Assembly: GCA_009760855.2 (NCBI GenBank)
Contig: WPIO01000009.1
Span: forward strand, 4,373,001-4,437,000
Length of the DNA stretch: 64,000 nucleotides
Direction: 5' to 3'
From: Cristatella mucedo
Taxonomy: Eukaryota > Bryozoa > Phylactolaemata > Cristatellidae
The notes under the pieces were generated by a model. The model was not told the origin of the DNA. It saw nothing but the letters and a program-made list of their open reading frames with translations, and ran no database searches. This document shows positions 16,076-59,852 of the stretch, one piece after another (within the stretch, counting starts at the first letter, position 1; every line of letters starts with the position of its first letter). Made by a program: the position numbers and the translations under genes.

Positions 16076-16631
16076 CCACATACATTGTATATGTTACTTG
16101 AGCTACTCGCACGAGCACACCCAAGTGCAGACATGACGTCCAGAACATGTAGCTGCACTGCATTCCTAACAAGAACTGACAGCCTCAGTCAGACAGTGAC
16201 CGATATTTCGCCTGGAGCTCTACACTTTTTGTATTTTCGTATTAATCCCGGAGATTTCGTAAGAAGAACAGAAAGATTCTATCGGTTAAGGTATGTCGGC
16301 TTAAGAGCTTGACTGGTGTGCCTTAAATATTTAATTAATACATTAAGAGAATTATTCTAATAATAAATGACTTTGTGCCTTAATCCATTCAGGCTTCTAG
16401 AACCCGGTCGTCAATGCAGGTACCGTTGTACTAGGACAGTCTCGCCTTACCAGTATCTCAATGCTGCTGTCCCGCTAGCTCGCTTGCACTCCTCGTGCGT
16501 CTTGTGTTCGTTCGACGATATTCAGGGTGAGTCCAAAGTTTCGTCAAATGCAACGTACTGCATCTGCATCACGTTTTGTCTGTACGCCTGCAATCTGAAA
16601 TGTACACCACAAGATCCAGGCCGTAATCGTG

Positions 16632-17768
16632 ATGGCGCTTGCATTTGCCATGGTCCGAACACGATCGGAGGCGTTGCCACCCGTGACAGCCATCTTTGTG
16701 TCGAGCGCATCAGACGACGTTGCGATGCTTGCTACAGGTGCGATGCAGCGTTCCGGGCTCATGCCACCACCGCCCGGCTGGCCTTCATCCAGTGGCCACA
16801 CGATCGAAAAGGCGCTGAGCTGCACCGAGTGTCACTTGCCGTTCGAAGATCAGCCGAGCCTGGCGGCTCATTTCAACAAGCCCGCCAGCAATGGAGCACC
16901 AAGTCCTGTTTGTAGCATCACCTCGTGCCTCCACGAAATGCTCTCTCCCTGCGCACTTAGTGCGCATGCACGAATGCACTCCGGAAAACGACCCTTCGTC
17001 TGTCCCGAGTGCGCGACCACCATACCCGGAGAACACGACGTGTTCATGAAGCACGTGTTCTTCAAGTGCCTCCACCGCAGCCACGTGCTTGCATACCCGT
17101 GCGATGTGTGCTCGGACGTTTTCGACACAGCACAGGAGCTGAAGCAGCACTGGCTGAACTGGTCAATGCACCTGCTCATGGTGAACTACGGCCGCACGTT
17201 CTCGTGCTCAGGCTGCTCACTCACGTTCAGGTCGCCTGAGCTGCTTGAGGCACACAAGTCACAAGTAGGCAGCTTGCCATCGTGCCGTGCTGCAGCAGCG
17301 ATCTGCAAGTACGTGTGCAATGCCTGCCTGAGAGCATTCGACACGTTCGATCAGCTGGCGATGCACAACAGCCTCAAGCACGGTCTCGACCTGAGTCTCG
17401 TGAGACCGGCACAAGCCTCGTTAGTTTATCGTTGCCGGCGGTGCTCAACCTCAGCCGGCATAGCCTGCTATCCGAGGAAGTTCAAGTTCTTGCACGAGTT
17501 CGACATTCACTTGCAGCTGCAGCACGGTCGAGATGTCGTCTATCATATGTGCAACGTGTGCGGACGCGATTTCCCGACCCCCGAGCTGCTGGAGAGCCAT
17601 CTCGTAAGTGACGGGCATCTGGCATGTCATTTCACGTCCTTACTGCTCAATTTATGTGACTCTTCAGTCGTTTTCTCTTGCACGCAGATTGCCTTGCTAC
17701 GTCAACATTTAAGTGTGGCATGCTCCACTCCAACGCTTTTAGCTTTCCATGAGTGTGCTATGGTATAG
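16632..17768 (+). CDS. Multi-C2H2 zinc-finger protein, large exon (copy B gene)
   Basis: An open frame of 378 codons from the ATG at 16632; an in-frame stop at 16596 means any upstream coding must enter through an acceptor near 16613. There are at least seven zinc-binding pairs, at about residues 64-80, 124-148, 157-180, 192-208, 229-250, 268-298 and 307-329. Spacing is irregular and there are no TGEKP linkers, unlike KRAB/poly-ZF genes. The dispersed fingers with FxxxxELxxH cores recall the ZNF532/ZNF592/ZNF687 type, a resemblance from memory with low certainty. It is probably a nuclear nucleic-acid-binding or chromatin-associated protein. A perfect GTAAGT at 17604 and a pyrimidine-rich acceptor ending at 17687 bound an 84-nt in-frame segment. 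Joined with the exon at 18204 it would form one gene; the donor ending this exon is uncertain. Confidence 0.8.
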   Translation: MALAFAMVRTRSEALPPVTAIFVSSASDDVAMLATGAMQRSGLMPPPPGWPSSSGHTIEKALSCTECHLPFEDQPSLAAHFNKPASNGAPSPVCSITSCLHEMLSPCALSAHARMHSGKRPFVCPECATTIPGEHDVFMKHVFFKCLHRSHVLAYPCDVCSDVFDTAQELKQHWLNWSMHLLMVNYGRTFSCSGCSLTFRSPELLEAHKSQVGSLPSCRAAAAICKYVCNACLRAFDTFDQLAMHNSLKHGLDLSLVRPAQASLVYRCRRCSTSAGIACYPRKFKFLHEFDIHLQLQHGRDVVYHMCNVCGRDFPTPELLESHLVSDGHLACHFTSLLLNLCDSSVVFSCTQIALLRQHLSVACSTPTLLAFHECAMV

Positions 17769-23000: not shown

Positions 23001-23590
23001 AGTGATGCATGCAGGGGAGCGTGCTGAGTGGTTTGCGACAACGCTAGTGTCGTTTGGTTTACGCACGCAGTGAAACGCCAGCCGATTACCACTAACAACA
23101 GTGTATTGCACGACGCACGGAGCAGAGGGAAACACAATTACCCTCGCCCGGTTTTCCCACTTGAGTCCCCTGCCCTCGACCATGGCTGTGCCCAGGCTGA
23201 CCCCGATGATTCATCCGAGGCGAACCACGGCTGTGCACCGGCCGACTCTGATGGGGAATCCACCCCTTTCGGCCCCGGCTACCGCGGTGGCTGCTGAGTG
23301 CTTTTTCTTTGTTGATGCATAATTCGTGAATCTTAGCAACAGCATTAACATCTTCGGAATGCACTTTAACTACGGTTAAGATGCGATTATAATTGCAAAC
23401 CATCATAACTAACATGCAGGTTGATAGACACCGGTATAGCTTAGGCCTCAGCCGTCCTGGGAGACCCTGGCTCCCGGAACGATAAGCGTTTAGACGTCCA
23501 CCGGCACTTAATTTCGTATGTGCTGCGGTCAATCAACAAGCATGTCGGCTTTAAATAGGTATTATCTGTATCTATTTATGTATACGATGT
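20042..23590 (-). mobile_element. LINE-A, nearly full length (about 3.5 kb), inactive
   Basis: The most complete copy in the window. On the minus strand, in coding order: a 5' region (23590-22920), an APE endonuclease domain (22471-22917, GLDLLALTKTWL with Lys for the expected Glu), a linker region, RT N-terminal part (21395-21655, KKSVVRPLLKKATLDKENLS), RT core (20719-21165, GVPQSSLRGPVLF, FYVDHTQLY), then a degraded C-terminal domain and the 3' module with a remnant ATT tail. The catalytic YADD is YVDH and several stops and shifts occur. It abuts the AT-rich polymerase block, which starts immediately beyond its 5' end. Confidence 0.88.
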
Positions 23591-23594
23591 TAGC

Positions 23595-24746
23595 AAGATC
23601 TTCGATTTTTGAAAGAATTCTGTAATGGACAATGAAAACGTATGAGCGCAATCTACGTCGGGAGGCGAGATCCACACAAAGCTCACATCCTAATTGTAAA
23701 AGTTACAACAGTAGCCTCCGAAACCAATTTAATATCTAAACGAGATGAATAAGGTTTAACAATTATTGATAAGTTAGAAGCTTATAATGTTATAGATACC
23801 AGACCGGTTTGTTAAGCAGTAACTAAGTTCACAGAAATCTCAGACAAATATTAATAATAATAACAATAATGCATTTGATGTAGCGTCCTCGGAGAATAAT
23901 CTCTTTTCAGTGCACTTTACGCTAATAAAATTTACATTATTATAGTTAATTAAGCAGGTAGCAGGAATAGTCGTGGCGATGAACCTACACGTAAAGCAAT
24001 AAAATTAGTAGTAAACAGACTTTCAGACTAATTTGGAGCAGCTTACTTTCTTACTACAACCGCCATTATTAATGACAAAGGGTTTTATCTTCTTGAAAAA
24101 ATATATAACGTTAAATACGTTCTAGCAGTAGCAGACGATCTTTATGCGGTTTCTCATAGAACTACTCCTATTTAAGATTCTGAAGCAAAGAAAAATTTAC
24201 CCAAATGAGCTGCCAAAAGCAAGCAACCACATTACAGGTAAAGACACAGACATAGCTCTAGCTGCTTCAATTACGTGATAGGCACGATGTATTTTACTTC
24301 GAAAAATTCAAGAAGTGATTAAGGTGGGAAATAAATTCTGTTATGTTGATACAGAGTTCCTGCAATCATACCAAAAAACCCTGAAGGACCTCTTCCGTGA
24401 GATTCTGTTTGACCTAGACGAAATCCTAGAAATGAATTACATCAATGCAATGTTCATAGCTCCTCAAATTTATTATTATTATATATAAAGAGAAGTAAAA
24501 AGAATTTCAAAGCTTTTTACCAAGGCAGAGAATATACTTGTACAGGCCTACAGTAGCTAAGTCATGCTAGATTCTGGACGTTCGTTATTCGAAGACCAAG
24601 TAGCATTCAAAGCAACTCCCCGAGCCTTAGGCTCAGGAATTACAACTCAGGAGTAGGCATTTAAAACCTGAAAACTTAAAGGAACTGAGTCAATCTGGAT
24701 CGCAGAAAAAGGAGTGATCAAAACTACCCTTGTAATGTATGAATAA
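23595..24746 (+). pseudogene. Family-B (protein-primed type) DNA polymerase C-terminal half, TGA=Trp code
   Basis: AT-rich sequence that reads as DNA polymerase B when TGA is Trp. Motif B: KLVVNRLSD-x-FG at 24002-24037, matching K-x3-N-S-x-Y-G-x-FG. The helix before motif C is at 24246-24287 (ALAASITW-x-AR; TGA at 24276, TAG at 24279 where Tyr is usual). Motif C is at 24339-24356 (CYVDTEF; DTE instead of DTD). A C-terminal AP-x-x-YYY segment is at 24459-24482. The terminal stop TAA is at 24744-24746. A frameshift separates motif B (frame ending 24175) from motif C (frame from 24171). The N-terminal exonuclease half is absent, cut at the LINE end at 23590. A small LINE-A 3' piece lies at 23862-23940. 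In linear mitochondrial plasmids such an enzyme replicates the DNA from a terminal protein. This copy is dead. The family assignment rests on motif order, not on an alignment. Confidence 0.78.
23862..23940 (-). mobile_element. LINE-A 3' terminal scrap
   Basis: (TAA)n followed by a diverged form of the LINE-A 3' module (gcgtcctcggagaataatctctttt), inside the polymerase block. Confidence 0.65.
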
Positions 24747-24954
24747 AGTATAACTCGGTTAAAAACTGTTGTGTTAACTTGGTATCCAGACGCAGTTATC
24801 AAGATTATACAAAAACCGATGTAAAACCTACAAAAACGTATTCAACTTTGATTTCAATAGATATTTCTCACCATTTAAATACGGAACGTAAGACAATTTC
24901 AATTAAAATGCTTTTAGCATAATTAGATGACATGTTTGAAGTTTTATGAAATTA
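24747..24954 (+). other. AT-rich continuation of the plasmid-like block
   Basis: Same base composition as the flanking polymerase sequences. Short open stretches only (for example LTWYPDAVIKIIQKP with TTGG Trp). It may be the RNA polymerase N-terminus or a spacer. Confidence 0.4.
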
Positions 24955-25225
24955 TAGTAATAATAATAGTAGCAATAACACTAGCACATATTTAAAAGCG
25001 CCTCAGAGAAACAAACCTCTTTCTAGGCACTTTACATAACATTTACATCAAAGGAAGCATGATTGAATGGTTAGTGGCAGCATGCTCAATGACAGCAAGA
25101 ATGACATGGTTAGAGGTGATACGCACAGGGTCAGGGTTAAATGCATATACCAATTTAGATGTAATATCTCTGTCTAAGCAAGCCTGACTTTTAACAATTT
25201 AATGTAGCTGAAGTTATGCAGAATA
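24955..25225 (-). mobile_element. LINE-A 3' fragment, degenerate
   Basis: (TAATAA)n-like tail and a diverged 3' module (gcgcctcagagaaacaaacctctttctaggc split by changes), then homology to the LINE 3' UTR and the SKLV region. Confidence 0.7.
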
Positions 25226-25311
25226 CATACCCTCAAAACACAACCATTTAAAATAGAGAAAATTCAATTCATTCACGAATTTTGAACTAATAAATATTAT
25301 TCGTGCCTCTC
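25226..25311. other. AT-rich spacer
   Basis: Between two LINE pieces; composition like the plasmid-like block. No motif. Confidence 0.3.
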
Positions 25312-27155
25312 GTCTCGCTTGGGTATAACTAGCACTGCTCTGCAATGGTTAAGGTCCTATCTCAGTGTGCGACTTTAGAGTACTGATGTAAATGGACAAA
25401 GCTTATCAGAGGAACCCCTGCAATATGGGGTACCTTATGGAACCGTGCTCGGTCCAGTTATTTTCACAGTGTATACTCTCTCTCTCTAGCCGATGTGATT
25501 GCCAAGCTTGATCTAGACTTTCACTTCTATGCGGACGACACTCAGTTGTACCTTTGCTTTTATCCCTCCCAGCCCTCTAACACGTCGAATTCTCTTCAAC
25601 TCCCTTGCTGTGTGTATTGATGACATCATCAGATGGCAGAAACGTATAAAATTAACTTCCTAGTTATGGGCAAACCAAGTATGATTCAGAAATTGGAAGG
25701 CTAACGCTCACAACCGGCTCTGCCAGCATATCTCCTGCTGAATCTGCACGAAATCTAGGTGTCGTGTTTCAAAGTGACCTTTCATTAGACGACTACACAG
25801 TCAAGTCTGCCTACCTTCAGCTACATAACGCTGCTAAAAGTCGGGCTTGTTTAGACAGGAATACTACATCTAAGTTGGTCCATGCATTTGTGACATCCCG
25901 TCTTGACTTCTGTAACTCACTGCTTGCTGGTCTACCGGCATGCGCCATCAGGAGCTTACAGCTGGTGCAAAACTCTGCAGCTAGGCTTGTCTGTCATGAA
26001 CGTCGCCGTTGCCACAGCATACCACTTCTCACCGATCTGCACTGGCTCCCAGTCAAGCAATGGATCGACTTCAAGGTTTTGTCACTCACTTTCAGGTTAC
26101 TTCATTCTTTGGCTCCAGCCGATCCCTCAGATCTACGCCCCCACCAGGCCAAGCATCGTATTACCAGCTTTTTGGAATCTGACTATTTAGCTATCCTTCG
26201 TACAAACCTTAAATCCTTTGGAGACCGTGCATTTAGTTCGTACGCTCCCAAAGCTGAATCTCACTCCCGACTTTGGTCACGACATCCCCTGACTTGACCA
26301 CATTTAAAAAGAAATTTAAAAACGCGCCTATTTATGACGAGTTTAGTGGGCCCTTGTGATTCGTCTTTTATGCACTGGCTACCAGTCATGCAACGGATTG
26401 ACTTCAAGGTTTTGTCGCTCACTTTTAGGTCCCTTCATTCTATGGCTCCAGCCTATCTCTCCGACATACTCCCCCATCAGGCCAAGCATCGTACCACCCT
26501 CTTTTCGGAATCCAACAGTCTACAAATACCTCGTACAAACCTTAAATCCTTTGGAGACCGTGCATTTAGTTCGTATGCTCCCAAAGCCTGGAACTCCCTC
26601 CCGACCAGCGTCAGAACATCCCCTGACCTGACCACATTTAAAAGGAACTTAAAAACACAGCTATTTAGGACAGCATTTAGTGGGTCCCTGTGATTCGTCC
26701 TTCACGTGCTTATGCGTGCTGACACTGTGCATGCTGCCACTAACCACAATTGCATGCTGACGCTGTGCATGTCACCCCTAACCATGTTATTCATTTTGTT
26801 TGTTTTTCAAGCATGATTTTACTTACCATTCAATTGCATTTCCCTTTGCAGCAAATGTAAAGCGCCTAGAAAGAGATTAAGTTCTCTGAGGGCGCTTTAT
26901 CAAGTGCATTATTATTATTATTATTATTATTATGTGCTTATGCGTGCTGACACTGTTGCATGTTGCCACTAACCATACTTGCATGCTGACTCTGTGCATG
27001 TCACCCCTAGTCCATGTTTTTCTTGTTGTTTATTGAGTATGCCACCACTAACCATTCGATAGTGCTTCCTTTGCAGCTATTTTAATGCACCTAGAAAGAG
27101 ATTGAGTTCTCTGAGGGCGCTTTATCAAATGTATTATTACCTTTATTATTATTCA
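25312..27155 (+). mobile_element. LINE-A, older copy, split by a younger LINE-A
   Basis: RT part from 25312 (TALQWL, GADDTQLY-type box near 25540: FYADDTQLY), C-terminal domain at 25764-26297, then broken at about 26371. Its own 3' UTR resumes at 26932 (tgtgcttatgcgtgctgac) and ends with the 3' module and an ATT-rich tail near 27150. Joining 25312-26371 with 26932-27155 restores the normal LINE-A 3' order. Confidence 0.9.
26372..26931 (+). mobile_element. LINE-A, younger copy nested in the older one
   Basis: Close to consensus: open frame to 26693 (LPVMQRIDFKVLSLTF, KTQLFRTAFSGSL), a complete 3' UTR and a clean (ATT)n tail. It interrupts the older copy at cttttatg, with ttatg/tatg repeated at the right junction as a possible short target-site duplication. 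Confidence 0.88.
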
Positions 27156-29472
27156 AAAGAGAAAAAATAATAATCGATTAATTATAATAATCAATTATTC
27201 AGTATCCTGAATCAGCGAGGAACCAAGTGACTAGGTTTCAGAGCTTCTCAATCACAAGATTTTCATTGTTGAAAATAAGATTATCAGTGAATTATATTCG
27301 AATGCAGTTAAGTAGGACTAAGGTATTTAATGACTCAATTCATAATTTTGCCTCAATTAGTTAACTATGAACGGATATATTCCTTGAAGATAGCAACAAT
27401 ACAACTCAACAGGACCACCCCTATAACTAAGATTGAATAACTACAAAACCAATTAAAATCATCACAAAAGCTATTACACGAGGTCATAAATGCTCATCCA
27501 ACAGTAGCTAAAATTATACAGTAAATATTATAAGATTATTTACCTTAACTAAAGGTATTTCTTAAAATCATACAATAAGCAATTAGAAACAGATATTTTA
27601 AAATACAATGCTTGGGAATACTTTACATAACTTAGAAAAAATGAACGTAAATACGATCAAATATGAGTGGGAAAATGTTTGATCAAAGCTTTGATCAATT
27701 CAACTTGAGAAATGCGGAAAGATGCCATTTTATTTGACACTCAAACTCGATCTTTTCATTTATGTAAACAATTAAATATTAAGCCCACATATGAGCGAGG
27801 AATCAAACTATCAGAAGCAACTTCTTTTGCAGCAACCACAGTGATAGTCTCACAACGACTGATTATGTTGAATGAAGGAGGTAAACCTATATTTAATAAG
27901 CAAGTTGGAGAATGCGAATATAGAGGTAAAAACTGAGGACGTGCCCCTAAATGAGTTGGATCATTGAATGTTATTATAATGCAATACATATTACACAAAT
28001 TAACAATATCTCCAGTATATTTAGAATCAGTAAAAATAATCAATTATTAGTCGTCAAGTTCAAAAGATAAAATAGATAGAAATAACAAAATTAACAGAGT
28101 TTATCTCGTTATTTATCTAATTAACATCTTATCCCATAGAATTCAAGAGCTCTTAAAAACCGATAGCTTCCGATCCTATAAAACGTCATTGATATGATGA
28201 AAGACTCGGACAGAATATGCTTGGGCAATAATAGAAACTAACATTATCTTTATGAATTTAGCTTATTTACGAACATCAATTAAATTATCGAATAGAACTA
28301 TTATCATAATAGTAATTTTATTGGTAGTCGCCGACGAGTATATCCTATGTTAACATTGTGTAGACATATAGGACCTAAATTAATACGGCCACTGTTTCAC
28401 CTTGGATGTTCAAGAATGAGAGTGCTTGATTTTGAGAGTACTTGATTTATCTCAGGTAGCTTTAATCCTAGGATCTTATGGCCTAAGAAGAGATCCAGAT
28501 TATTCATAGCGATAGCTAAGCAATTTAGACTGGAACTTAATGCAACAATCTCATTACAACAGTTTGTTGAAAGTAGATATTAACACAAGTTTTTTATTGT
28601 TGAATTGAAATCCTTAAAAATGTACAACAAAAGAACCAACATTAAAGAACATAATTTCAAATTGATACGAAAAATGTTGCTATTCAACATAAAGCAAAAC
28701 TTTTTAATAATCAAGAGAACATATGAGCAGTAGTATTACCTGGAGGAGATGAGGGTCTATATACGGGAGTAGCACGTGCAACCATGATTACTGTAAAACA
28801 CCACAGACGCATAGAATGAGCACACGAAATGTTAAGTAAAATACCCTATGAAGGAGAAAGACGTAGAGAAACACCAGCTATATCATGAAAAGTAGTCAAA
28901 CGTCCTGTGAGAGTCATTGACTACGCTGCGACTGAATATACTACGAAACAGTCCGTTAGAGGTGAACTCAAGGATCTCGGATCGAGCTTTTCTTTAGAAA
29001 CAAGAATCATTTATTGAAGTAGTGATTGACATAGCAATGGAAACTCCAAGTAAAAAATTAGAATTAATGACAAAAACACGCAAAAGAGGGTGAAAAATAG
29101 AAGAGGTAGATTATTTTGACCTTTTGGTAATCTTTCTGATTTAAATGCCCACTTGACTTATATGAGGAAAGAAAATTGAACAACCAAGGTAAGATTCAAT
29201 ATAAATAATCTACATACCACCTGTATTGTAATAACTGATCAGCCAGATGCACAGAAACTACGATTAGCAGCCTTTGTGAATATTATTCATTCATTAGATG
29301 CTTTACATTTACAACTAATTGTTGATGAATAAAATTAATTCAATTTGTTCACAATTAATGATGCTTTATTAGTTACACATAATGAAAAATGAGACATATT
29401 GAAAATAGCAGCAAATATATTTATGAATATTTATAATAATCGGAAGGCCTTTTCACCAATTATACGGGATCT
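27156..29472 (+). pseudogene. Phage/mitochondrial-type single-subunit RNA polymerase, TGA=Trp code
   Basis: AT-rich, read with TGA=Trp. Segment 1 (27568-28050) is open for about 120 codons after a TAA, with TGA at 27664, 27706, 27934 and 27952; VGKCLIKALINST fits the N-terminal domain. Segment 2 (28305-28583) has RRRVYP (T7-like RGRxY box), then NATISLQQF, a degenerate motif A with the catalytic Asp as Asn and one residue short. Segment 3 (28661-29014) has VVLPGGDEGLYTGVA (LP...IY..VA) and WKVVKRPV with DYAATEY, the motif B helix. Segment 4 (about 29120-29472) has FVNIIHSLDALHL and INDALLVTH, motif C with the Asp kept but His as Asn. Frameshifts separate segments 1/2, 2/3 and 3/4. The length, about 670 codons, fits plasmid enzymes of roughly 800. 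It would transcribe the plasmid inside mitochondria; here it is dead. It ends at a SINE. Confidence 0.85.
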
Positions 29473-29650
29473 AAAAAATACTAGCTGACTTAAGAGCCTC
29501 TTTTGTGTAGCGACAGAAGAGCCTAGATGGCTATCGCCACCGCTTGCGGCGGCGATAAGGGATCTCCCACCACAGGATTCGAACCCACAACCTTGGCACC
29601 GAGGTCGTGGAAAGAAACTGCCTTATCTAATGAGCCATCACGGCTCACCA
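29473..29650 (-). mobile_element. tRNA-derived SINE, family 1
   Basis: Complete-looking copy on the minus strand: head gagccgtgatggctcatta, A-box region, B-box gggttcgaatcc, body and A/T tail. It marks the right limit of the RNA polymerase pseudogene. Confidence 0.82.
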
Positions 29651-29699
29651 ATCTCAATCTATTGAAAGGGGTAGGCAGTAATATGATGGTGAAAGAGCT

Positions 29700-29782
29700 C
29701 AAATGTAAAGCGCCTAGAAAGAGATTGAGTTCTCCGAGGGCGCTTTATCAAGTGCATTATTATTATTACTATTATTATTAAT
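29700..29782 (+). mobile_element. LINE-A 3' module and tail only
   Basis: aatgtaaagcgcctagaaag...gcgctttatcaagtgc followed by an imperfect (ATT)n. Extreme 5' truncation. Confidence 0.85.
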
Positions 29783-29929
29783 GGATCAGCTTAAGTTCTC
29801 TTGTACAGTAATTACTCCTGTAGAAGCACGTATCGCATAAAAGCGATATGTTTTTAGCTTTACAAATTCTTAAACCGCTGAAGCTAAACTGCATTATTGT
29901 TCCCCTATAAATTGAAAACTCCCGATACC

Positions 29930-52920: not shown

Positions 52921-53544
52921 CTGCAACGGCAGTCATTCAGCGAGGCATGCAATCACCAACGAGCTGGAACGGAAATGCGAAATCCGAGAGGGGGGTCGAT
53001 CCTCAAAGTAAATATACGACCCAAAGTCGTGGCAGACGGCCACTTGCACTTCGGCGGTTGACAAAGGACTACTATTCTAGCGCTATTAGCTACCACGACG
53101 GACGCGAAGGGTGGGACTCTTCGATAAGGTTTCGCTTATCGATCGCGCTAGCAGCTCAATGCCCCTCCGAGCATGCCCGACCACGATCTCAGCAAGCCAC
53201 GCATGACTCAAGGCAGTCTCAGGGGGCCTGACAGAAGGACGAGAGGACAAAGGAGAGCCGGCATGGATCAGCTTCGGCATGCATATAAATAAATATGTGT
53301 GCATGCGCGTGCTGGCGTGCGTGTAAGGGTATGTAGCACGTGGGAGCTTCAAGGGCAGCAGTTTTCCATAGCAGCAGCAGAATGGTCTCGGTCCATGATA
53401 TGAAGATTCACTTGCATGGGGGAGAGTTCACACGGGACACTATCAGACACAGACACGGTGACTGGCACTGCGACCGGTGGCGGACCGAAGGGGGGGGGGC
53501 AGCTGCTCGAAGAACGAAGGTATAAGCGGTACAGAGGACTGGGA

Positions 53545-53738
53545 GGCAGTTTTTTCGACTCCAATGCTGACAGTGGGCATGGCACTGGCCACGCCGCAGA
53601 CAGCGCCGGCCGCAATGCGGCACCGTCGTTTACCTCGTCGTTAGACAAACTGCTTCCATTGACTTCGTGTGGGGGCGGCGGCGACGTCAGCTTGTTCTGC
53701 GCTGCAGCCGACGGCGTCCTGCAGTTCTTCTCTGTCAG
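53545..53738 (-). CDS. Candidate internal exon, Pro/Ser-rich
   Basis: The minus-strand acceptor gctcagacctgacag is followed by a frame reading KNCRTPSAAAQNKLTSPPPP, HEVNGSSLSNDEVNDG and LESKKLPPSPLYR. The composition suits a disordered exon. The donor is uncertain, and the opposite strand has an overlapping 117-codon frame (53416-53769), so the strand is not certain. Confidence 0.35.
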
Positions 53739-54253
53739 GTCTGAGCCGCCAGAAGGACCTACGACCTAAGGTCAAGGTCAAGCCGTCAAATCAAAAGTTA
53801 TATCAAGCCGCGCCCACGCAGTGACGCAAGCGTCCGACGGCAGGCGAGCGCTGATTGGTCGAGCCCGGTGCCACCGCGAACGATCATTGCAAAGACACGT
53901 TAGACGAGCTTGGCGCGATCGCGTGGCGTGACCTCTAACGCAGGCTTCCGCAGTCGGCTGCTTGAGAGCACCGTACTGAGAGCCACACGAGAATGTCTCT
54001 GCAGCAGCAGGAAGCAGCACACTGCGGGAGTAACAGCGGCAACCTGCCCAGGTCTGCGAGCAGACTTGGTCGTTCGGTTGCGCACTGATAGCACTGAGTA
54101 GGGGGGCAGCTCCCATGCTGTGAGATCGCCTGCCGGCTGGTTGAGGTCAAGGTCTGCTAGATGTCAAGGTCATGCAGGCGCAGGTGGTTGCACTCACAAG
54201 CACCCGCCTAGGTTCTTCCAGCAGTCTAGTTGCCGGGCGACGTGCCGTGCCAG

Positions 54254-54257
<4 letters not shown>

Positions 54258-54286
<29 letters not shown>
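54258..54286 (+). repeat. (CAG)n run
   Basis: About nine AGC/CAG triplets; intergenic or intronic relative to the supported exons. Confidence 0.9.
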
Positions 54287-54689
54287 CACTGCCCGCGCTG
54301 AGGAAACCGAAGAGGCAAGGCTGCATACGATAGGCATTCCTATAGGGGCTCATCAATTGTCGGCAAGTATGTGCTACGCTATTTTTCTTTAAAGCACTAC
54401 GCCTGCTGGCACGTGATAGTGAGGGCGCTAAGGGGAGGGAGACTACAGGGGGCGGAGACGGCGGGTTCGAGTGGAGCCTAACATTCTTCGATAACGAGCC
54501 AAGATGCAATGCTCCGACTGCCGACAGGCATGTCTGGGATGCTTTGCGAGCTAGGTCGGCACGCAGGACGTCAGCGGGGGTCAGTGGGCGAGGACTTGGC
54601 TTCCGGCGCTCCTTACTGCCGTGCCGTGCTGCCACTGCAGAGCAGCGGACGGCTGGCTGCTGCCGACGTCGGCGCCAGCTCTCACCACA

Positions 54690-55748
54690 CACTGTACGGC
54701 TGGCACTGCTGCAAAACTGGGAACGCCGCCGCCGTCACACACTGCCTCCGGTGAGGTTCGGCATTGGGCGGAATCGACGTCGACCGGCAGCGCAGGGCAG
54801 CCACAGACGATCTCTGCGGCTCCCACGCTCTCGTGCGCACTTCGATCGCCTTCGTCGTCGGCTGCACGCGAGCGCTGGCCGCAAGCCACGCTTTCGCTGC
54901 TGCTAGCGCTGCCCGAGTCGTCGGCTGTGCCGTCAGCTTCAAAAGCTGCCGCAGCAATGACGGTGATGCAGACGGTGGAGGCAGCACCGTCGCAGGCCGC
55001 CGAGTGCACATCGAAGGTCAGACGCCGAGTGGGCATCTGCAGCTCCTGAGAATCGCCAGGCAGGCTCTGATCGTTGAGTAGCCAGTCCGGTCCAAGCGCC
55101 TCTCCCCCTCTGCCACCGCCGCTGCTGCTGCCGCTTCTGCCGTCGGCCGAACGTGGAGCCACGAGCAAGTGTCTGATGGCATCCAGTTTGTCATAGGCCA
55201 AGCTTAGTTTGCTGCCGCTTGTTGCGCTGTCGCAGCCACCACTGCCGCTGCCATGGCTACCGATGGCAAGAGCGACGACCTTATCGTCGACCGAAGGCAC
55301 GACCTTCTTGCTAGCTGCTGCACCGTCAGACGGGCTGTCACCCATAGGCTCCACGGCAGCCGATGCCGCTGTGATACCGGCACTGGCAACGCCATCGCTA
55401 CACATTTCCGCATTTCCACCGAAAGCGGCCACGTGCTGCTCTTGGGCGGATTGAGACAGGCGAGGCGTGGCTGCCACTGCACCGCTTGCTGCACCGTCTG
55501 CTACTGCTGCTGCCGGTTTGCCTGCTGCACCGACTGCCTCTGGTGTCGACTGCGGTGACCAGCAGTCGCACGCGTCCTTATCAATCCGATCGAGCGGCCT
55601 CGATGACGTCGGGTCCGCGTGTCCTTTGCGTGCGGCACGTGGGATCACGCCTTCCAAAGATGTGGCAAAGGCTGCTTCGCTACGATGCGGCCTTGTCACT
55701 GCTTGGATGGCATCGACAGACGCAGCCTGCATGAGCGCACCTCCACTG
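54690..55748 (-). CDS. Candidate large exon of minus-strand gene, Ser/Ala/Gly-rich
   Basis: A minus-strand frame of about 350 codons, from a possible acceptor (gagctatgtcag) to a donor-like GTGAGA at 54689. The content is low-complexity and acidic, with a more ordered island SLAYDKLDAIRHLLVAPRS and a GPDWLLNDQSLPGDSQEL segment. No catalytic domain is seen. It is the longest frame in this region, and short ordered islands in a disordered chain suggest a regulatory or scaffold protein. It would precede the 52744-52920 exon in transcript order. GC-rich triplet repeats keep several frames open here, which lowers confidence. Confidence 0.45.
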
Positions 55749-56126
55749 ACATAGCTCGGCTCCTACCAAGTGCGGATGGCCGTGGAAACAGGCACGCTGC
55801 TACACCTCTTTCAGGTGCAGATCACTGCACAAGCAGTTGAGCACGGCCCATAAATGTGGACAGACACGCATATGCGCACAAACTGACGCACGTGCGAGCA
55901 AGCATACACGCCTGTCCATACAAGACCGTGTTCTGCATTTGCCTTTTTTCGAATGACAAGCACCGTAAGTTCTTAATTCACACGGAACTTTTCTTGCTGT
56001 GCCAATTATCACGACTTCGATTGTCATGATATTCACGATTGGCGCGACTGAGACTAGCCAGCAGCGGCTGAATTCACAGCGGCGATTGGGCAGCTGTGCA
56101 GGTCAAACCACCACACTTCAGGGGCA

Positions 56127-56345
56127 GTCCACAGTGGGTACATGCGATTCGTCCTTTGTGTGCTTATGCGTGTTGATAGTGTGCATGTTGCCACTAACCA
56201 TGTTATCCTTGTTGACATTGTGTATGCCATTACTAACCATATGACCATGCTTCCTTTACAGTATACGTAAAGTCCTTACAAAGAGATTAAGCTCTCGGAG
56301 GACACTATACACATGTATTATTATTATTATTACTAGTATTATCAT
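56127..56345 (+). mobile_element. LINE-A 3' fragment
   Basis: gcgattcgtcctttgtgtgc, the 3' UTR, the module (taaagtccttacaaagag) and an ATT tail. It lies in a presumed intron of the minus-strand gene. Confidence 0.82.
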
Positions 56346-56931
56346 TAATATTACTGTCAGTCGGAATGTGTAAGCCGGTATGGTGCTGTCTCCTGCGGTT
56401 TCACGTATCACAAGTTCAATCCATGAGTGATAGGGCCGATTGCTCTCTTTCTATTTATCTACTTGGCGATTGTCGGTTGGTGTGCAGCAAATGCGGCTGA
56501 CGGTGCACTTGCTTGTACAGTTATGTGACGTCTGGGCAGTCAACTCATGCATCTGATGAAGCCGTATCAGTAGGCCGCCAAATGCGCACTCCCACACTCA
56601 CGCCCTGTCGGCAGGTCGGGCTGCCTGCTCGCCTAGTTAACTAGTGACCACACCAAGCCAATAAGACTGCAGGGAACTGCTGACAATATGCTCGCTCGGA
56701 TCAGCCTGCCCGCTTGCATCATCGCAGGGATTGCTGGCTGCGCCGCCACGCCCCCTCCCGAGCAGTCAGCCGAGCAGTAAGATGATGGCACTGCACTCAG
56801 GCGGGGCCACGGGATTCGAGTCGTTCAGCACACTCAGCAGCAGCAGCAGGGTAGACAACCATCGCTGCACAGCAGTCTGCAGCTGCTGCGGATGCACTGG
56901 CAAACACGTGTTGCTGAGTAAGCCACTCCCT

Positions 56932-57705
56932 TCACTGGTGGCGGGCAGATCTCGCCAGCCTAGCGGTTGCTAGGCGAGCAGGAGACCGGCAATCGCTCTG
57001 CTTCTTATCCCGCCTCGGCTGCTCACCTCTCAAAGCAATCCGCACAGGACGAAGCTGTGACAGCGACTCCCGCTCGGCAGCAGCCGAGACAGATCGAGCT
57101 CGCTGCTTGCTCTTGCCCGAGCTCAGCCTGAGAGGGCGAAGGTCGGGAGATCGAGCCGGGCTCTCACGCAAAGCTGCTGCTGCTGCTGCTTCGGCAGCAG
57201 CATATTTCCGACTACCAGCAACGACGAGGCTGGAGCCGGACGGCATGCTCGACTGCCGCGCGAAGCTGGCGTGCGCCCGAAGACCCTCTCGCTGCGAGGC
57301 CGCATCAGGCATCGGCGGGCAGCAGGGAAGACGCTCCGGAACATGGCCGAGCAGCGTTGCCATGGCACTGGGACGAAGCAGCATCATCGATAGATGGACA
57401 ACCGCCGGTCCCGGGGGGGGGGGGGGAGGAGGAGCAGGCAGGAAGGAGCGTCCAATGATGAGCAGCAGCAGCAGCACAGACCAGCAGATCCGGACGTGTG
57501 GACAGAAGAAGAGGGAGGAAGAATTCATGAGAAGTAGGGTTCGAAGCGAATCGTCCGCTGCACTGCAGCGCACAGCACTGATGGTGGCGCGTGCGCCAGC
57601 ACCCAGCAGGCGAGCGGCACTCGCGTCAAACTCCACCCTCCTCAGAGCAGCAGCAGCACTGTTGCGACTTCCCACGATAGGGCTCGGAGAGTTGGGCTCC
57701 GGCAC
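56932..57705 (-). CDS. Doubtful 257-codon frame, Ala/Ser/Arg-rich
   Basis: A minus-strand frame with SSGKSKQRARSVSAAAERES and SLVVAGSRKYAAAEAAAAAA. The plus strand has an equally long frame (57107-57898), and CTG/CAG triplets and a G14 run keep both open, so this may be no gene at all. Confidence 0.2.
   Translation of the reverse strand: MPEPNSPSPIVGSRNSAAAALRRVEFDASAARLLGAGARATISAVRCSAADDSLRTLLLMNSSSLFFCPHVRICWSVLLLLLIIGRSFLPAPPPPPPPGPAVVHLSMMLLRPSAMATLLGHVPERLPCCPPMPDAASQREGLRAHASFARQSSMPSGSSLVVAGSRKYAAAEAAAAAALRESPARSPDLRPLRLSSGKSKQRARSVSAAAERESLSQLRPVRIALRGEQPRRDKKQSDCRSPARLATARLARSARHQ
57413..57426 (+). repeat. G14 homopolymer
   Basis: Uninterrupted run of G, a likely assembly or sequencing weak spot. 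Confidence 0.95.
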
Positions 57706-58015
57706 TTACGACCCCAGGGGCTGGAATCTGACGGACGAAAAAAACCGACGACGATGCCACGCGCGCGTACGAACGGTGAGCGAGGACGGTGCACATCTGG
57801 CTGCCTGCGGCTGGCCCTTTCAATGCACTCTAGCTTGGAGCCATCAAGGCTCCGTCACACGTGAGACCTTGGCAACTACTGTGCGCCGAGGTCTCTGACC
57901 ATCCCACAGTGGGCAGCAGCAGCAGCAAGCGGGAGCCGGCCAGTCGGGCAGAACAAGAGGCGCAGCAGAATTGAGGTCATCCATCAGGCTGCGAGGTCGG
58001 GACTCATCAGAGTGC

Positions 58016-58441
58016 TCACGGCCGAAAGGCAACAGCAGCAGCAGCAGCGACCAGGCGAATCAGCATTGCTAATTTGCCCGGGCAGGCGCCGACTCGTGCG
58101 GCAAGTACCTGTGGCTGAACGAGGCGTCCGCTGTGCAACCGACGCGGCAAGGCTGCTGACTGCGAATCCTCTGGTGGCTGCACTGGCAGGGCAGGCTGCT
58201 GCCACGCCGAGTTGTCCCGCCACGTCTTGGGCCGAGCGCGCAGCTGCTGCAGCTGCTGCTGTTGCAATGACTCTGCCGAAGCTGCTGCCACTGGACTGAC
58301 GTCGGCAGCATCCTCAATCGGACTGGACGCAGGGTGGAGCTGCTGCTCTGTAGATGCACTGGCCGACACGAGCTGCTGATTGCTGCAAACGACGAGAGCA
58401 ATTGCAGATCTGGCCGCCTCCATGGTGCTGCAGCAGGCCAT
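58016..58441 (-). CDS. Candidate exon, Gln/Ala-rich
   Basis: A minus-strand frame containing STEQQLHPASSPIEDAADVS, a short polyQ and RARPKTWRDNSAWQQPALPV. It is compatible with an exon of the same minus-strand gene. Splice sites are not clear. Confidence 0.3.
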   Translation of the reverse strand: MACCSTMEAARSAIALVVCSNQQLVSASASTEQQLHPASSPIEDAADVSPVAAASAESLQQQQLQQLRARPKTWRDNSAWQQPALPVQPPEDSQSAALPRRLHSGRLVQPQVLAARVGACPGKLAMLIRLVAAAAAVAFRP

Positions 58442-58454
58442 CTTTTATTTTTAC

Positions 58455-58602
58455 TAATTAATTATAATTCATTCGTATAGCGCCCCAAGAGAACTTAATC
58501 TCTATTCAGGTGCTTCACATATGCCTCGGGGCTCGAGCCGACGATCTCAGCCAGACCTTGGTCGGGGCGAGCACCTTAACCGCTTGACCAAACCAGCTTT
58601 AT
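58455..58602 (-). mobile_element. tRNA-derived SINE, family 2, with LINE-A-like 3' end
   Basis: On the minus strand: gctggtttggtcaagcggtt aaggtgctcgcc (A-box region), B-box ggctcgagcccc, then a 3' part gaatagagattaagttctct with gcgctatacgaatg mirroring the LINE-A 3' module, and an ATTAATTA tail. Confidence 0.85.
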
Positions 58603-58983
58603 CGTCCGCATCAAGATGAAGCAATACCGCTTAGGCTCATCTGCCAATGTGTAAGTGAAGATGTTGACCTTGCCGACCTTCACTTTTCACCTCGCTGACC
58701 TTCGCCTCGAGCTTGTCCGAGGTATACTGGCTGCGCTGCTCTGGAGCCAGGTGCTTCGAGCCACCACAGCAGGTTGCCTCGTGCAACACTCCGGAAGTGA
58801 GCGCAAACGCAAGCTAATCCCAGTCGACAGCAGCTCGGCCAGCAGCGCCTTGGCTGGAGACAATTAGCTATGCGTGATACGGGGTGCCGAGCACGGCCAA
58901 AGCCTGCACGCAATGACTCACAAGCCGATGTGTGCGAGCGAGCTCTTCCGCAGAAACCACCTTCTGTGGCGCCCTCACCTTGA

Positions 58984-59587
58984 CGCGGTGGCAAGTCGAC
59001 TGACGTGCTGAGGATCCGAATCGCTGGTAACACTAGCCGCAGCAGCAGAGTTGCTGTCTGCTCGCCCGCAAGCAGCCCTATGAGCTTCGTTGCTGCTGCT
59101 GCTGCTCTTGCAGCTGTCAGAACGCGTCGCCGACAGAACTGTGACGCATTCGGCTTGCTGCTGCTGCTGCTGCTGCGGCACAGCTCGCTCTGTCTGGCTG
59201 ACATCGAGCGACGACGCGTCACGCTGAGCGACGACGGGTGCTGGCAGCTCTGGCGGATGCAGGTGGCCATCCGACGGACCAACGGGTGACCGCAGCGACT
59301 GGGACGAGGCCGCTGGCTGCGTGCCGGCGCCCTCACTCGCAACCGCTGCTGCGACGCGGCTCTCGACAGCACCCGCCGCTGCCGGCGAAGCGAGCCCGTC
59401 CTCGGTGGCGGCTGGAGCGTCCTTTCCAGACGGACTCGCGACGCACGACGGGCCGGCGGCCGGCTTTGCGGCGACGGCGGCCACCACGTGACTCGGGTCG
59501 GTGCTGAGCTTGAGGATGTTGCGCAACGAGGCTGGTGCCGTGGCTGGCAGCTGGACCGATGGCATCGGAGCGGCAGGCATGTGCTGT
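58984..59587 (-). CDS. Exon with polyQ tract, unrecognised gene
   Basis: On the minus strand a good acceptor (atttcgttcttgacag) precedes 59587, and a donor CAAG|GTGAGG lies at 58983. The frame is open throughout, about 200 codons. It has an ordered N-terminal island (APASLRNILKLSTDPSHVV), an Ala/Ser-rich middle, a polyQ of seven near residue 135, then Ser-rich sequence. Bounded by consensus sites at both ends, it is the best supported exon of the minus-strand gene. Function unknown; probably a disordered regulatory protein. Confidence 0.55.
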
Positions 59588-59852
59588 CAAGAACGAAATT
59601 TGCTCAGAGCTACAGAGAGCAAGCAAGCATCGCTACCCGAGCCGGCAGTGAAAGAACCTGCTCCTATGGATCGATGCCCTAATGGTCATGCGGAGAAGGC
59701 CAATCATCACGGACACGCCAGTCCATGATGGGTGGCAGCAAGACTTCTCGCTCAACACTTGAATTTGCAGGCAATGCACCGACTTCAAGAGCATCAGCAC
59801 AGCGCCCAACATGCAGCTGCTCAACCTCTGTCGAATAGATTGCTCTCTAGCA

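Follow-up and report, generated by a model that had tools for sequence, protein, structure and literature searches.

The window, a 64,000-nucleotide stretch of the Cristatella mucedo genome (contig WPIO01000009.1), carries the remains of a plasmid-like element with two disrupted polymerase regions on the same strand: a family-B DNA polymerase at about 23,666-24,900 and, downstream of it, a T7-type RNA polymerase at about 27,330-29,840. The nuclear relic spans 23592-29905 on the forward strand; on the left it is cut by a LINE, which we take to be CR1-type, that ends at 23591, and its right end (29905) is the element's own terminus. Both polymerase regions are interrupted by host LINE and SINE copies, mapped by self-blastn, and these inserts bear out the view of a preliminary description that the relic is nuclear, integrated and old. 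That description had found the correct place, but its interval, 23595..29472, was too short. The features are listed below, where C226, C442, C222 and C668 are other copies in the same genome.

23592..29905 (+): nuclear relic of the element (self-blastn insert map; right-end motif common to C226 and C442, similar in C222)
23666..23833 (+): piece of the DNA polymerase B that corresponds to C668-frame residues 124-180 (tblastn with code 5, E=2.4e-4)
23847..23921 (-): 3' tail of a host LINE/SINE within the DNA polymerase (self-blastn, several copies in the window)
23969..24470 (+): DNA polymerase B between motifs B and C, corresponding to C668-frame residues 380-548 (tblastn E=2.6e-26)
24561..24806 (+): C-terminal extension of the DNA polymerase (tblastn E=4e-15)
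24952..25222 (-): host LINE fragments (self-blastn)
25305..27160 (+): host LINE copies, presumably CR1-type, between the two polymerase regions (self-blastn)
27330..28430 (+): N-terminal and middle part of the RNA polymerase (E=1e-16 and 1e-21 in tblastn with pieces of C226)
28658..29473 (+): catalytic part of the RNA polymerase (tblastn E=2e-40; RNA_pol E=1e-8)
29467..29780 (+): host SINE with a LINE-type tail near the RNA polymerase C-terminus (self-blastn; tRNA-derived type assigned by eye)
29781..29840 (+): final RNA polymerase codons 3' of the SINE, with the stop TAA at 29838-29840 (by eye, from comparison with the C442 C-terminus)
29828..29851 (+): hairpin around the stop codon (z of -3.3 relative to 200 mononucleotide shuffles)
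29892..29905 (+): right terminus motif (a single occurrence on the two strands of the 64 kb; C226 and C442 have the same end, C222 a similar one)

The DNA polymerase segment at 23969..24470, whose bounding motifs are, we assume, motifs B and C, contains a single frame switch near 24200, and tblastn found no counterpart in the window copy of C668-frame residues ~181-379. The LINE family inserted at 25305..27160 is characterized by RVT_1 matches on its other copies. The stop-codon hairpin occurs in the same place but with other bases in C226, C442 and C222 (z -3.2 to -3.6), with a z of -1.7 in C387. Rfam and ARAGORN scans of the window, and an Rfam scan of the C226 element, gave no matches.

The element's DNA polymerase is, judged by homology, a family-B enzyme of the protein-primed type, and priming by a protein would be expected of it. 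A purpose-built profile of 84 protein-primed-type phage polymerases ranked 24003-24752 first in the window (E=1.9e-5), with the best chunk outside the block at E=1.7, and a query from another copy in the same genome matched the window copy at 1e-18 with 35% identity. The window pieces matched PHROG 1907 'DNA polymerase' at 0.0038, and they had no matches in Pfam. DNA_pol_B_2, proposed earlier as a check, thus does not match the window on its own, but it is found in the better-preserved copy L113 at 2e-45 (PF03175, 'organellar and viral'). Searches of PDB with the window pieces matched no polymerase, and the same was true of the DNA polymerase frame of C668 with E limited to 0.1. As the preliminary description had recognized, the window holds the C-terminal half of the enzyme, and both C226 and C442 retain it from its start. 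No separate terminal protein was found. In a comparison set of polymerase loci, 80 kept out of 159 confirmed, not one had an RNA polymerase in its frames of at least 120 residues.

The RNA polymerase is by its sequence a single-subunit enzyme of the T7 type. When TGA is read as Trp, the frame of 28655-29490 matches Pfam RNA_pol at E=1e-8, in line with the check suggested earlier; its two open pieces taken separately score 0.0032 and 0.00094, both below the curated cut-off of the family. The same stretch was top-ranked (E=6e-12) by a profile built from 15 RNA polymerases of viruses, several of them near-identical, among 1026 six-frame chunks of the window from which those of 50 residues or fewer had been excluded, and the best chunk outside the block reached E=5.7. 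A query from another copy in the genome found the window copy at 1e-39 with 48% identity, better-preserved copies match Pfam RNA_pol at 2e-15, and PF00940 was found in the window as well as in the copies. The two polymerases on one strand that had been proposed for this locus are therefore confirmed by these profiles. In viral and phage collections the only matches were distant RNA polymerases of the phage type (3 and 12 records), and neither the viral nor the prokaryote collections contained a close relative.

The genome (572 Mb) contains at least 11 loci of the element, and the order DNA polymerase then RNA polymerase on the same strand is firm at 8 of the 11, with a ninth supported by a weak match. 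C226 and C442 have both ends in common, as read by eye, and measure ~5,103 and ~5,045 bp, which gives an element length of ~5.05-5.1 kb that the two polymerase regions occupy entirely. Neither end motif is present in five older copies. A test for terminal inverted repeats at the element ends did not rise above shuffles; the outermost bases are complementary only as a G-run on the left and a C-run on the right (by eye), terminal complementarity extends over a few bases at most, and no inverted repeats other than host or simple repeats were found (the 25 pairs listed out of 43 are all host repeats). No target-site duplication was seen by eye at C226 or C442. Pfam searches of 10 frames from four copies detected no capsid, integrase or viral protease, and beyond the polymerases gave sub-cut-off matches only.

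Both polymerases appear to belong to one frame of ~1,660 codons. Across 786 codon columns before the common stop, three copies have no stop in common between at least two of them and 8 private stops, the whole-element codon projection being used for private stops in its first part only (to about codon 1,010). At the junction of the two polymerases there is one private TAA in C226, there are two in C442 and none in C222 or C668. Such a single uninterrupted frame suggests that the polymerases would have been made as a fusion or polyprotein.

The codons of the element point to the invertebrate mitochondrial code (table 5), in which TGA is Trp, ATA is Met, AGR is Ser and AAA is Lys. Exchanges were counted in 7,703 codon pairs from five copies, which are not independent and which, as for the dN/dS estimates, come from alignments filtered at 50% local identity or more (30% for the window copy). 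TGA was conserved 61 times and exchanged with TGG 10 times, with AGR 7 times and with CGN 7 times. ATA was exchanged with ATG 81 times versus 17 for ATY, and AAA with AAG 121 times versus 12 for AAY; the ATA pattern resembles that of two-codon families and is unlike that of four-codon families. AGR was exchanged with Thr codons 29 times, with Ser codons 28 times and with CGN 6 times. Against outside profiles, AGR favours Ser (+17.8) over Arg (-38.5) in 53 columns, and ATA favours Met (+0.1) over Ile (-28.5) in 56 columns, with Thr (-0.5) nearly equal to Met. In the same profiles Trp is disfavoured for TGA (-18.9; best Lys, +2.0; 12 columns), and the control codon AGT (14 columns) failed to come out as Ser. 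Among the copies, 17 positions carry TGA or TGG in at least two; in the window, the TGAs at 29027 and 29117 align with columns in which 13 and 15 of the 15 viral RNA polymerases have Trp, 7 of the 9 TGAs lie off Trp columns, and two further Trp-rich columns carry AAC and, in one of two alignments, ATG. The cox1 of the host, on a 21-kb contig, uses the element's code, with TGA at 10 of 11 Trp positions, ATA at 9 of 10 Met positions and AGR at none of 8 Arg positions. The code is not code 4 or the standard code, which a fungal or plant plasmid would be expected to use, and codons that fit the invertebrate mitochondrial code imply that the lineage was translated in such mitochondria over a long period.

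Between C442, C226/C668 and C222, dN/dS is ~0.05-0.1. Since the differences lie mainly at silent sites, these lineages were still functional when they diverged, and they probably reached the nucleus on several occasions; as read from the codon comparisons, purifying selection demonstrably preceded nuclear integration.

The mitochondrial-plasmid-like character proposed at the outset is supported, but the label of a kalilo/maranhar-type invertron, a class to which we take maranhar to belong, is not: the two genes share a strand and, it appears, a reading frame, long terminal inverted repeats were not found, and the code is that of table 5, not table 4. As far as the cited sources describe them, the invertrons kalilo and pAL2-1 carry DNA and RNA polymerases in opposite orientation on 5-15 kb with terminal inverted repeats and use the mould mitochondrial code (PMC9925561); the element shares the polymerase pair with these and maranhar, but differs in its fused same-strand genes, its code and its ends. 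The Calocybe plasmids pCGr and pCC2 are described with both genes on one strand and terminal inverted repeat caps, and pMR1 of Moniliophthora roreri as a non-invertron mitochondrial linear plasmid (PMC9925561). The element resembles the former in strand arrangement and pMR1 in its non-invertron structure, but it has no inverted repeats beyond a few bases, unlike pCGr and pCC2, and differs from all three in its one continuous frame, code 5 and animal nuclear copies. A 5,877-bp linear plasmid reported from the protist Marophrys has dpo and rpo, UGA as Trp, inverted repeats at both ends and a copy integrated in mtDNA (PMC6425028), and is thus similar in gene pair, size, UGA usage and integration, whereas the copies described here are nuclear and no such end repeats were found. 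In medusozoan mtDNA, polB and ORF314 are thought to be the remnant of a linear plasmid, with TGA as Trp the sole code change; this too is an animal family-B polymerase, but it lies in mtDNA and no RNA polymerase is described beside it in that account (PMC3519871). In the literature consulted, plasmids with both polymerases are reported from fungi, plants, a slime mould, a ciliate and a centrohelid, and the jellyfish polB remnant is the sole animal case encountered.

Very probably, the copies are fossils of a ~5-kb linear plasmid-like DNA with fused polymerases and code 5 that was resident in the mitochondria of this animal lineage. It is very improbable that a fungal invertron of the kalilo/maranhar type, or a plant or protist plasmid, moved horizontally into the animal nucleus: the gene pair, size class and TGA as Trp, also found in code 4, would agree with this, as would the same-strand types in Calocybe and the non-invertron in M. 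roreri (PMC9925561), but ATA as Met, AGR as Ser and AAA as Lys misfit code 4 and the standard code and equal the host cox1 code, and both polymerases lie here in one frame without the canonical inverted orientation. Replication in the mitochondria of another animal, such as a parasite, prey or symbiont, followed by horizontal transfer, is unlikely. Code 5 is common among invertebrates and several diverged lineages are present in the genome, both compatible with such a source, but the element's code is that of the host, and repeated long-term integrations of one family are most simply explained by a resident source.

A virus-like or Polinton-like nuclear element, or a nuclear transposon, would account for the family-B polymerase and the many nuclear loci; it is nonetheless a highly unlikely origin, given that the polymerase regions fill the 5.1 kb, that the copies show mitochondrial codon behaviour and diverged under selection in that code, and that no target-site duplication accompanies C226 or C442 by eye. 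The matches were also not confined to host POLRMT or Polinton polymerases, an outcome that the preliminary description had considered. The host does have a POLRMT-like gene, a set of exon-sized matches, but at a separate locus (C122), and the window RNA polymerase frame had no match among the RNA polymerase chains of PDB with E limited to 1, whereas a control phage RNA polymerase matched mitochondrial RNA polymerase chains at ~7e-41. A chance neighbourhood of pseudogenes of POLRMT and of a host or numt-borne polymerase is excluded for practical purposes, because 8 of the 11 loci show the two genes in this order.

To conclude, the window relic would belong to a set of at least 11 nuclear fossils left by a resident mitochondrial plasmid-like DNA, presumably linear. 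This DNA would have inhabited the mitochondria of the host lineage, rather than those of another code-5 animal, and been translated there; it would have copied itself by its protein-primed-type polymerase and transcribed itself by its T7-type polymerase. Copies of several diverged lineages would have joined nuclear DNA at different times and then decayed, two of them end to end at full length, possibly by end joining. To our knowledge, animal mitochondria are usually thought to contain just their small chromosome, and since elements of this kind were known from fungi, plants and protists, an animal-adapted lineage would be a new finding. We consider it somewhat probable that the mitochondria of bilaterians carry, or carried until recently, an autonomous linear 5-kb replicon with fixed ends, a replicase-transcriptase polyprotein, the animal code, several lineages and repeated nuclear leakage, and a free form may still be present in this species. 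The element presents a DNA and an RNA polymerase apparently joined in a single frame, its nuclear copies would record the history of selfish mitochondrial DNA in the form of molecular fossils, and whether animal mitochondria carry plasmids becomes a directly testable question.

Read with TGA as Trp, the window frame at 28655-29490 scores 34.9 bits with Pfam RNA_pol (cut-off 22; E=1e-8), and PHROG 414 'RNA polymerase' recognises it at 2.7e-8; its open pieces taken singly give RNA_pol values of 0.0032 and 0.00094, both below the cut-off. Furthermore, a profile of 15 viral RNA polymerases, 12 of them from viral contigs and 3 from phage records, with several near-identical, placed three chunks of the AT-rich block on top (6e-12, 3e-5 and 0.0017), with the next at E=5.7, among six-frame window chunks (1026 made, those of 50 residues or fewer omitted). 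The RNA polymerase claimed in the preliminary description is thus borne out, also by the HMM search that it proposed. The family B DNA polymerase claimed beside it is confirmed as well. A profile of 84 viral family B polymerases (four phages and 80 of 159 loci) ranks 24003-24752 first among the same chunks (1.9e-5) and an overlapping chunk second (2.7e-5), followed elsewhere by E=1.7, and PHROG 1907 'DNA polymerase' matches the window pieces weakly (0.0038), but no Pfam family naming a polymerase matched them. The DNA_pol_B_2 match that had been expected was likewise absent from these pieces; this 'organellar and viral' family matches better-preserved copies on the extracted stretches L113 (2.3e-45) and L108 (2.2e-44), and RNA_pol matches the better copies at 2.3e-15.

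The relic is what remains of 23592-29905 outside the host repeats that a self-comparison of the window delimits in and beside it:

23001-23102, host repeat
23184-23591, host repeat
23847-23921, host repeat
24952-25134, host repeat
25139-25222, host repeat
25305-27160, host repeat
29467-29649, host repeat
29700-29793, host repeat

These repeats bear out the view that the block is integrated and old, with host LINE and SINE sequences inside it. The LINE is CR1-type, of a family with an RVT_1 match on other copies, and the SINE is tRNA-derived as judged by eye. Elsewhere in the window, 16599-17765 is an extended open frame encoding C2H2 zinc fingers (zf-C2H2 in Pfam, 4.7e-11), and the G+C-rich stretch 53352-59603 (about 52-63% per kb) carries long serine/alanine/glutamine-rich open frames that are perhaps exons of one host gene.

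In the 572-Mb assembly (688 contigs; window at G000:C687:4373001-4437000), RNA_pol has 13 matches. Six lie in a row on contig C122, arranged like exons of a POLRMT-like gene, and seven lie on C442, C226, C387, C222 and C668, several of them with in-frame TGA. Host POLRMT is ruled out as the source of the relic, since the window RNA polymerase frame, searched against the PDB with E values allowed up to 1, hit no RNA polymerase, whereas a phage enzyme used as control picked up mitochondrial RNA polymerase chains (about 7e-41); matches to host POLRMT alone, which would have spoken against the plasmid-like origin, were therefore not what was found. The C668 DNA polymerase and the C442 RNA polymerase as queries each gave 13 assembly matches, the window copy among them (1e-18 and 1e-39, respectively), and together they added old copies at C387:2.04 Mb, C222:6.42, 6.45 and 6.46 Mb and C210:74 kb. 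The element is present at no fewer than (at least) 11 loci, with both genes in the same order and strand at 8 of the 11; at a ninth, C222:6.46 Mb, the RNA polymerase match is weak (0.004), and two have the RNA polymerase alone. Three old DNA polymerase fragments lie on one strand within 45 kb at G000:C222:6416945-6461824, with RNA polymerase matches nearby, which represent either clustered insertions or a duplicated stretch.

Codon exchanges, outside profiles and TGA conservation, taken in sum, identify the code of the element as NCBI table 5, the invertebrate mitochondrial code. The exchange set comprises 7,703 codon pairs from five copies at a 50% local identity filter, which favours conserved stretches; because the alignments were built under code 4 (ATA=Ile, AGR=Arg), they are biased against ATA=Met and AGR=Ser and towards TGA=Trp. 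ATA exchanges with ATG 81 times versus 17 with ATY, and it therefore pairs with ATG when set beside two-codon families (AAA 121:12, GAA 99:28, CAA 73:3, TTA 55:6) and four-codon families (such as GTA 33:41, ACA 16:107). AGR exchanges with Thr (29), Ser (28), Asn (14) and Lys (13), and with CGN just 6 times, AAA remains with AAG, and TGA is unchanged in 61 pairs, its partners otherwise including TGG (10), AGR (7) and CGN (7). The pattern is unchanged without C668 (3,827 pairs). In the outside profiles, AGR favours Ser (+17.8; Arg -38.5; 53 columns) and ATA favours Met (+0.1) over Ile (-28.5), with Thr near (-0.5; 56 columns); the controls ATG, ATT, CGA and TCA were correct, and AGT (14 columns) did not recover Ser. 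The 12 TGA columns show no preference for Trp (-18.9; best Lys, +2.0), hence the evidence for TGA is its conservation, with TGA or TGG in at least two copies at 17 positions.

Two of the nine TGA codons in the window RNA polymerase frame align with Trp columns of the viral enzymes (Trp in 13 and 15 of 15). To the contrary, another TGA aligns with an Arg column (15/15), AAC stands at a column that is Trp in 9/15, and a further column with Trp in 13/15 has ATG in one of the two alignments but is gapped in the other. This frame has TGA versus TAA+TAG at 9:3 and no TGG, against 37:73 in the other five frames (Fisher p=0.009); the window DNA polymerase frames have no comparable TGA excess. On the host mitochondrial contig, G000:C688 (21,008 bases), a cox1 match in code 5 covers nearly the whole gene; weaker cox1 matches on C166, C83, C549 and C299 resemble nuclear copies of mitochondrial DNA. 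Compared with one solved cox1 chain, the host gene reads the same code as the element, with TGA at Trp in 10/11, ATA at Met in 9/10, AAA at Lys in 2/2, and AGR at Ser 3, Ala 3, Thr 1, Gly 1 and Arg 0/8. Together with the C2H2 zinc-finger frames and the CR1-type LINEs, this code-5 cox1 indicates that the host is probably an invertebrate animal.

The ancestor was most likely a single frame of about 1,660 codons, as stops are private to one copy and none is shared before the common RNA polymerase stop. Four copies have no common stop in the polymerase border region: C226 has one TAA (Thr or Ser in the others), C442 has two (Gln in the others), and C222 and C668 have none, with private small indels just after in C222. 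From the DNA polymerase end to the common RNA polymerase stop, 786 codon columns in three copies hold no shared stop and 8 private ones, and each of 11 stops up to codon 910 is confined to one copy. None of the copies read keeps the whole frame intact. The first ~20 residues of the C442 DNA polymerase look hydrophobic by eye.

C226 and C442 have a common left start and right end, with lengths of ~5,103 and 5,045 bp by eye, and blastn aligns them across the whole ~5.1 kb. The C222 right end is similar, the C668 and C387 copies are truncated, and the window copy keeps its right end at 29892-29905, a motif with a single occurrence across the two strands of the 64-kb window; five older copies examined have neither end motif. 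The outermost bases are G-rich on the left and C-rich on the right. No terminal inverted repeat at the ends was better than shuffles, and blast for inverted repeats found nothing besides host and simple repeats. A hairpin encloses the RNA polymerase stop codon in the window and in C226, C442 and C222 (z -3.2 to -3.6, mononucleotide shuffles; C387 z -1.7); in the window copy it is built from different bases. A long hairpin also lies at the left end, directly before the start codon, at L108:975-1100 and L109:2607-2720.

Among C442, C226/C668 and C222, dN is 0.12-0.14 and dS 1.5-2.5, which is near saturation, in alignments filtered at 50% local identity (30% for the window copy) that favour conserved stretches; third positions differ by 44-49%. 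As dN is low relative to dS, these lineages split while still protein-coding, which points to independent integrations. C226 and C668 are a close pair (dN 0.07, dS 0.17), whose changes are mostly post-integration or under weaker constraint. The window copy, which shares 49-60% of its amino acids with the five others across the codons read and has 13 TAA/TAG in 653 codons, represents a lineage that is older or more distant.

According to PMC9925561, invertrons carry the two polymerase genes inverted between terminal inverted repeats, unlike the same-strand order at 8 loci here, whereas two Calocybe plasmids have both genes on one strand, as here, and an M. roreri plasmid is likewise non-invertron. 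PMC6425028 describes a 5,877-bp Marophrys plasmid with UGA=Trp, as here, and its 2019 listing covers fungi, a slime mould, plants and a ciliate; PMC3519871 describes polB and ORF314 retained in medusozoan mtDNA. Among the top literature matches listed, no animal or nuclear case appears beyond this jellyfish remnant.

The genes, code, ends and selection are read from the sequence itself, and the families make the following working most likely. The element would be a linear mitochondrial molecule that its own DNA polymerase copies from the ends and its own RNA polymerase transcribes, with one transcript stopping near the stop-codon hairpin, and an occasional molecule would reach the nucleus and be joined in.
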